Assembly (NCBI GenBank): GCA_947589575.1
Contig: CANQBM010000011.1
Span: forward strand, 1 to 46,612
Length of the DNA: 46,612 nt
Direction: 5' to 3'
Source: an uncultured Clostridia bacterium
Lineage (GTDB): Bacteria; Bacillota; Clostridia; Oscillospirales; Acutalibacteraceae
The notes beneath the pieces are model-generated. The model was not told the origin of the DNA and made no database searches. It saw nothing but the letters and a program-made list of their open reading frames with translations. Shown piece after piece: positions 46,537 to 46,612 of the stretch. Numbering within the stretch: the stretch's first letter is position 1; each line of letters starts with the position of its first letter. The translations under genes were made by a program, and so were the position numbers.

Positions 46537-46612
46537 ATGGAAAATTTTGACAGACAGACAGACAGACAGACAGACAGACAGACAGACAGACAGACAGACA
46601 GACAGACAGACA
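46537..46612 (+). CDS. Start of a gene with a 5' GACA repeat tract (truncated by window end)
   Basis: AAGGAG (46523-46528) stands eight bases ahead of ATG 46537, which begins MENF and then runs straight into GACA repeats coding for repeated Asp-Arg-Gln-Thr up to the end of the window. The real protein lies beyond. All three frames through a GACA tract are open and encode the same four residues in rotation, so the number of repeats decides which frame is read afterwards. By position it is the next gene of the polysaccharide operon, plausibly a glycosyltransferase or other glycan enzyme; the product is unknown. Confidence 0.7.
   Translation, partial: MENFDRQTDRQTDRQTDRQTDRQTD
46549..46612 (+). 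repeat. Tetranucleotide repeat (GACA)16 at the window end
   Basis: Sixteen perfect GACA units, 64 bases, run to the last base. The tract is three codons after the ATG codon of the last gene. The true length is unknown because the sequence stops inside it, as an assembly would at a repeat that reads cannot span. Confidence 0.97.

Follow-up and report, generated by a model that had tools for sequence, protein, structure and literature searches.

The window, i.e., the entire stretch of 46,612 nt analyzed here, is contig C11 of an uncultured Clostridia genome (1.96 Mb in 32 contigs), and it ends within a polysaccharide operon. The last three genes, all on the forward strand, encode an Acyl_transf_3 protein (43191-44237; PF01757, E 2.7e-31), an EpsG-family polysaccharide protein (44285-45487; PF14897, E 2.7e-12), and a family 2 glycosyltransferase, GT2 (45499-46515; PF00535, E 5.1e-41). 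The Acyl_transf_3 gene has no repeat tract and is a paralogue of the tract-bearing gene described below. Immediately 3' of the GT2 gene, on the same strand, is a short leader with a -35-like hexamer, TTGACA (46517-46522), and a -10-like hexamer, GAAAAT (46540-46545), of the form NANNNT. The two hexamers match the consensus at 10 of 12 positions, and the 17-nt spacer between them includes both a Shine-Dalgarno-like AAGGAG (46523-46528) and an ATG start codon (46537-46539). The ATG is followed by the codons GAA AAT TTT and then by a perfect (GACA)16 tract (46549-46612), with which the contig ends.

The original prediction, made from the bare sequence, had described this arrangement of ribosome-binding site, ATG, three codons, and sixteen perfect GACA units running to the last base. 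The arrangement was confirmed with TRF, in which the GACA array scored 128 with a 100% match (the second-best array in the window scored 58), and the array is far above chance expectation. An exact search of the whole genome for (GACA)5 returned two sites only, located at the ends of contigs C11 and C12; the C12 end (locus L009) has 76 nt, or 19 GACA units. Since each contig breaks off inside the tract, the 16 and 19 units counted are minimum values, and of the original statement the perfection of the repeat stands while its count is set by the assembly. Eleven genome tracts in our collection reach a sequence end, and seven of these measure 71-77 nt, a cluster that may come from a fixed assembly word length. 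No contig of the assembly other than C11 and C12 ends in the tract, and the simplest reading is that the two are neighbors, with the window tract going on at the C12 end for 19 units or more.

A tract at a contig end may raise the suspicion of an assembly or adapter artefact, which the original prediction had itself named. The contig end does mark a limit of the assembly, yet polysaccharide genes flank the tract on both sides, and similar tracts recur in other genome assemblies and in viral contigs, also in mid-contig positions. We regard an artefact as extremely improbable.

The gene beyond the tract

When C12 is read outward from this end, ACCGAACAGAATAGAATGG comes next after the 19 units and then, in frame, an open frame of 346 codons, whose 346-residue product is an Acyl_transf_3 protein (Pfam E 7e-32). 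The proposal that the tract belongs to a gene of a polysaccharide operon was thus borne out, and the check for absence of a gene in any frame after the tract came out negative. The tract had also been described as open in all frames. This is true of the tract itself, but beyond it one frame runs for 346 codons, whereas each of the others reaches a stop, after 4 or 7 codons. That a 4-base unit cannot keep frame likewise holds: one third of unit numbers keeps the acyltransferase in frame with ATG GAA AAT TTT, namely n = 2 mod 3, assuming that C11 and C12 are adjacent. Because the gene is open from the ATG only at these unit numbers, the tract is most naturally read as a frame switch. The next in-frame start past the tract is a TTG, whose use would drop the first 28 residues of the post-tract part, including the RIEWIDTAKG and LLGH segments where the Pfam match begins. 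In the Acyl_transf_3 family, this N-terminal part is needed for activity.

Further downstream on C12 are genes for GT2, LicD, Branch (core-2/I type), a second GT2, a flippase, and a glycerophosphotransferase-like protein, all with Pfam matches above cut-off, as well as a second LicD-like gene (assigned by eye and by weak tblastn likeness to a LicD gene). The operon is of the capsule type and would serve a surface polysaccharide. The locus has several features of a contingency locus, i.e., a long perfect tract whose unit length is not a multiple of three, a unit number that sets the frame of the gene (given C11-C12 adjacency), and a target coding for a surface structure, here an Acyl_transf_3 gene amid GT2, LicD, Branch, and flippase genes.

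Two similar intergenic stretches were also seen downstream of the operon (L009, ~1150-1300 and ~2230-2420). They share TTGACAATTAT...AGTATGATATTATTTTT...CTTGACAATT(C/T)AATGCGTGATA, precede the second LicD-like gene and, by eye, a glucosamine-phosphate synthase gene, and resemble a promoter or attenuator module that has been repeated.

Tracts and leaders in a species of the same genus

Within the genus, (GACA)5 occurred in 4 of 80 genomes, and the leader (at most 3 mismatches) in two, the window genome (one site) and genome G076 (two sites). Contig C1 of G076 carries counterparts of the last three genes of the window (90, 83, and 84% identical) along with an additional GT2 gene, and it ends in the leader and tract. 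Contig C47 of this genome has a tract at one end, followed by a LicD gene 89% identical to the tract-less LicD gene of the window genome; it also contains GT2, flippase, glycerophosphotransferase-like, and Branch genes (the latter 90% identical and without a tract) and ends in the second leader and tract. At the start of contig C21, a Branch paralogue (60% identical) carries a tract, and the acyltransferase orthologue comes next. This orthologue is 96% identical to the switched gene and lacks a tract; its start is TTGACAGATAGA, it begins TTG ACA GAT AGA ATA AAA TGG, and it has no TTGACA at the usual distance. Such a start suggests a seed from which a tract might grow. Comparison of the two genomes indicates that the LicD and acyltransferase genes each gained or lost a tract and that the leader is common to different genes.

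Occurrence of GACA tracts

In larger samples, 11 of 398 family genomes contained (GACA)7, and (GACA)6 was found in 13 of 394 genomes of the order and 7 of 398 of the phylum; these samples overlap, and each contains the window genome. A scan of IMG/VR for (GACA)6 matched at least 120 stretches, and 80 loci among the matches listed were used. Among 77 coding-like tracts, the longer open frames are on the GACA strand in 72.

Tract-bearing genes include the center of hsdS, DNA methyltransferase-like genes, and a reverse-transcriptase-like gene (all named by eye), PAPS-reductase-like phage genes (L201: PF01507), and acyltransferases (L175, PF01757; L379, by eye), and in L178 the tract is in a hexapeptide-like transferase gene of a capsule operon (a weak match, below cut-off). 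Other tracts are located in 5' UTRs, where the gene that follows encodes a chemoreceptor (L171, L177), an S-layer-domain protein (L184), or another exported protein (L170, L173, and L182, which has no Pfam match; export signals by eye). In L186, a 5' UTR tract precedes a signal peptidase gene adjoining TasA-like proteins (TasA by eye).

Two single tracts were also noted. A viral reverse-transcriptase-like gene (by eye) carries 24 GACA units and is open on both sides of them (L230, ~2700-2797), and the hsdS protein search met an additional tract in genome G134 (C10, 36810-36939), which has another at C4.

A promoter-like element upstream of the tracts

The window tract fits a proposed class of promoter-anchored tracts, in which TTGACA is 22-30 nt 5' of the repeats and NANNNT follows TTGACA by 16-18 nt. 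A consensus promoter scan of the window gave nine sites, including TTGACA-17-GAAAAT, against 6.7 expected, so this site alone proves nothing, and the rule rests on the set of tracts. The rule was fixed after 14 genomes, ahead of the viral, order-sample, and phylum sequences. The tally required 60 nt of upstream sequence. Seven of the 30 genome rows fell short of this, which left 23, and the viral set comprised 72 distinct rows among the matches listed after seven with short upstream sequence had been dropped and rows with identical flanks merged. Further tracts of G134, G284, G325, G524, and G751 (known by match counts) lie outside the tally.

Of the 23 genome rows, 20 had a perfect TTGACA at a distance of 22-30 nt 5' of the tract, as did 35 of the 72 viral rows among the matches listed. 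In 200 dinucleotide shuffles, the corresponding means were 0.15 and 0.36 and the maxima 2 and 3, respectively. The genome rows are partly kin, as the window and the two G076 leaders form one family and six rows are hsdS, and the 20 positives amount by eye to about 13 contexts. TTGACA was followed 16-18 nt downstream by NANNNT in 20 of 20 genome and 32 of 35 listed viral cases, compared with means of 5.0 and 8.3 and maxima of 11 and 16 in 1000 simple shuffles of the stretch. Inside genes the -10-like hexamers are weak. The distance from TTGACA to the tract ranges over 23-29 nt among the genome and listed viral tracts, with a mode of 26 (23 of 55), followed by 25 (12) and 27 (11). Thus, as a statistical rule, the tracts begin where the +1 of a promoter-like element would be expected, even inside genes.

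The exceptions were three genome tracts (L178, with 5 of 6 positions, L180, and L186) and 37 of the 72 viral tracts among the matches listed, which have no perfect TTGACA in the range tested. Among six further tracts of the phylum sample, examined by eye, TTGACA was found at 24-27 nt in L377, L379, and L380, of which L379 and L380 are from other classes; L381 has none, one of four with usable upstream sequence (L376 and L378 have no usable upstream sequence). When the listed viral tracts are arranged by rising length, TTGACA precedes 3/14, 7/16, 9/16, 9/15, and 7/11 and is commoner before longer tracts (p 0.005). In genomes, tract length did not differ with and without TTGACA (p 0.52, with only three tracts lacking it).

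Other units were searched in the same viral collection. For (GACC)6, 11 of 45 stretches had TTGACA at 20-31 nt; once like rows were merged, the count at 22-30 nt was 8 of 42, and in these eight the hexamer is always TTGACA, never TTGACC. For (GATA)6 the count at 22-30 nt was 4 of 38, at least two of them promoter-like by eye, and for (CAAT)6 it was 0 of 35, with two stretches of one family having TTGACA at 20 nt. These unit-by-unit counts indicate a link that is strong for GACA, present for GACC, and weak for GATA, and the (CAAT)6 and (GATA)6 results rule out a general property of tetranucleotide tracts. A degraded tract as the source of TTGACA is also ruled out, both by spacings that are not multiples of four (25, 26, and 27 are all common) and by the occurrence of TTGACA before GACC. 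In one PAPS-reductase-like phage gene (L357, ~2340-2440; IMGVR_UViG_3300021387_000987), the tract is (GACC)n, located 24 nt after TTGACA, where relatives have (GACA)n; the unit can therefore change while the anchor stays.

The strict site and spacing, together with the shared spacing of GACA and GACC, might point to a dedicated factor, such as a recombinase, polymerase, or reverse transcriptase, that reads TTGACA-N17-NANNNT and writes repeats. One phage gene family, in which the tract occurs at two positions, each ~25 nt after TTGACA or TTGACG, would also agree with it. The motif is that of a sigma-A promoter, however, and no new factor is needed to explain it. No candidate was met among the sequences examined, and we consider such a factor very unlikely.

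Codon use and ancestry

A simpler account is that of a plain contingency locus of the Haemophilus kind, in which the tract only shifts the frame and TTGACA and NANNNT are leftovers of ancestry or codon use. Frame logic does suffice for the acyltransferase, about half of the listed viral tracts lack TTGACA, and several tract genes (hsdS, PAPS-reductase-like) are homologous, so that some repetition of the motif is inherited.

The hsdS genes provide a control for codon use. Before the tract they encode a central LLTF or LLTY, and the conserved L-T is spelled TTGACA in 12 of 12 tract copies. Six tract-less LLTF copies have CTGACG, CTGACT (three), TTGACT, and CTAACA, i.e., TTGACA in none (Fisher p 5e-5, for copies that share ancestry and hence are not 12 independent events). 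The hsdS search gave 16 tract-less rows, comprising these six, nine with other residues, and one chance match (L046), which is not hsdS and has TTGACA at another place; some of the tract-less copies are second copies of the motif within the same genes. Codon constraint as the source of TTGACA is thereby ruled out for hsdS. The PAPS-reductase-like family has 27 relatives, and the 18 parsed comprise six with GACA tracts, one with GACC, and 11 without. Most of the latter lack the whole segment (by eye), so this family offers no codon control; L354 and L368 have other segments instead, with no TTGACA at the place in question.

Besides the unused TTGACA in tract-less LLTF copies, other observations argue against leftovers. 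The spacing is spread over 25-27 nt and is therefore not tied to the reading frame, and the spacers differ; moreover, the rule extends to unrelated genes, to 5' UTRs with TATAAT or TACAAT, and to part of the GACC tracts. The plain contingency locus is a possible explanation, to which we give well under even weight.

Tracts in 5' UTRs

Several leaders of 5' UTR tracts, which have TATAAT, TACAAT, or CATAAT, have the appearance of genuine promoters whose +1 falls on the tract. For such tracts, defined as UTR-like when no 60-codon frame lies beyond them (L168, with short downstream sequence, was left out), a transcription attenuator may be considered, consisting of a promoter, (GACA)n from +1, and a hairpin formed by the tract as 5' arm and GTCTGTC as 3' arm, with T's after it; the in-gene cases would then be a by-product. 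A complementary arm of 7-8 nt follows 6 of the 10 UTR-like genome tracts, five of them T-rich after the arm (e.g., GACAGAC-AATA-GTCTGTC-TTTTT), and L380 of the phylum sample is similar. Among the downstream genes inspected are those for chemoreceptors, an S-layer-domain protein, and further exported proteins. Against this, L173, L174, and L177, three of the ten, have no complementary arm (L180 has a 5-nt arm only), and among the other phylum-sample rows, L378 has a 5-nt arm and three have none. An arm of at least 6 nt was found in only 2 of 21 viral UTR-like rows among the matches listed, neither of them T-rich, and in 3 of 77 coding-like tracts, one T-rich. A search for RNA families at the 5' UTR tracts gave nine matches in 14 loci, all under the family gathering score. 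At the window locus, the gene follows the tract in frame. The UTR tracts of genomes may be attenuators, as a second use of the tract, but as an account of the whole class attenuation is doubtful, slightly more so than the plain contingency locus.

In L174 (8598-8693, reverse strand), where the GTCTGTC arm is absent, a small hairpin, GGGTA-ACTA-TATCC, followed by T's was seen by eye.

Variation in tract length

Related phage contigs differ in tract length. L201 and L350 have 78 and 18 nt, with flanks 99.5% identical over 400 + 400 nt; L218 and L220 have 25 and 37 nt, with flanks 100% identical; and L257 and L266 have 26 and 30 nt, with flanks 97 and 89% identical. The first two differences are multiples of three units and do not switch frame, so the unit difference is frame-changing only in L257/L266, one of the three pairs. 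Tract lengths were equal in L220 and L259 (95% identical downstream flank). Duplicate fetches of one contig and the pair L199/L219, cut by a contig end, were left out of the comparison.

An interrupted GACA array was observed in another phage gene (L251, 3688-3854 of the reverse complement), of which a copy 92-97% identical (L258, 13415-13467) has a single shorter tract; neither has TTGACA at the usual distance.

Discussion

The locus is best explained, in our opinion, as a slipped-strand ON/OFF switch of a surface-polysaccharide Acyl_transf_3 gene, with the promoter-like element possibly a working part; judged from sequence, this explanation as a whole is likely, though not assured. Gain or loss of one GACA unit would shift the frame, and the acyltransferase would be ON at n = 2 mod 3. 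That the tract is a random on/off switch of a glycan gene is very probable, and the product affected would be a surface glycan. The original prediction of such a switch is partly supported, by the gene, the frame rule, the leader and tracts on other glycan genes in G076, and the length changes of phage tracts. It did not see that the tract has company: the leader is found on different genes in two species, and the tie to TTGACA-N17-NANNNT is not something that H. influenzae would have predicted.

The least certain part is that the promoter-like element may act in the birth, growth, or slippage of the tract. A promoter at a coding tract could not serve the full gene because transcripts would begin past the start codon in the window and in the middle of the gene in hsdS, and we therefore propose a role in the life of the tract itself. 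RNA polymerase would open the DNA at the tract, and the open complex would favor slippage or expansion. Alternatives to this mutator role are internal transcription of the second half of the gene, or a bias in tract birth without later function. A broader conjecture is that in Clostridia, some other members of the phylum, and uncultured phages, such tracts are formed or maintained where transcription starts, and that a sigma-A-type promoter, placed even within coding regions and across start codons, brings RNA polymerase to the tract, sets its mutation rate, and serves as a programmable local mutator; we offer it tentatively, as a minority possibility. The TTGACA of hsdS can be removed with the protein unchanged, which makes the idea cleanly testable.

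Among known systems, lgtC of H. influenzae carries GACA and lic1A carries CAAT; lic1A is licA, not licD. The switched gene is a homologue of neither, being Acyl_transf_3 in the window genome, and a tract-bearing LicD gene was found only in G076. H. influenzae oafA encodes a glycan O-acetyltransferase of the Acyl_transf_3 family, and the repeat unit of Neisseria nadA is a tetranucleotide. The Clostridia, in turn, are better known for inversion switches.

A GACA tract is also reported for H. influenzae pgt1 in the portion of PMC2651432 consulted. The window tract resembles these loci in its tetranucleotide unit (GACA in lgtC and pgt1), in its association with glycan genes, and in frame switching by unit number, but it comes from a different phylum and its gene is an acyltransferase. 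In the same portion, simple sequence repeats (SSRs) are described in ORFs and in promoters, with none of the in-gene tracts linked to a promoter-like element. The tetranucleotide tract of oafA is GCAA and in mid-gene (Fox et al. 2005, as cited in PMC2651432), whereas the window tract is GACA and at the start codon. In a Firmicute, Streptococcus suis modS is described as phase-variable through (GACAC)n (PMC8125046); it likewise switches frame by an SSR of related unit, but the unit is a pentanucleotide and the gene encodes a DNA methyltransferase. In Neisseria nadA, an SSR in the regulatory region is reported to alter the spacing of distal promoter elements (PMC2791445), whereas GACA tracts start just 3' of the -10-like site, also in coding genes. 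No description of GACA tracts in Clostridia or of promoter-anchored tracts was found in the titles and abstract openings listed; some of the hsdS tracts may be included in the work of Atack et al. 2020, cited in PMC8125046, which surveyed type I systems for DNA repeats. The promoter-like anchor of GACA tracts is new here.

A contingency switch of familiar logic is well supported here, in a bacterial group where it was not expected, and the class to which it belongs has an unexpected promoter-like anchor. These data extend SSR phase variation of sugar coats to uncultured bacteria of this group, in which exported proteins, chemoreceptors, type I restriction specificity, and phage genes are probably phase-varied by the same tracts. 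The promoter-like anchor also provides a handle on why certain repeat tracts come into being and remain long while others do not, and it bears on the question of whether transcription initiation may control local mutation rate.
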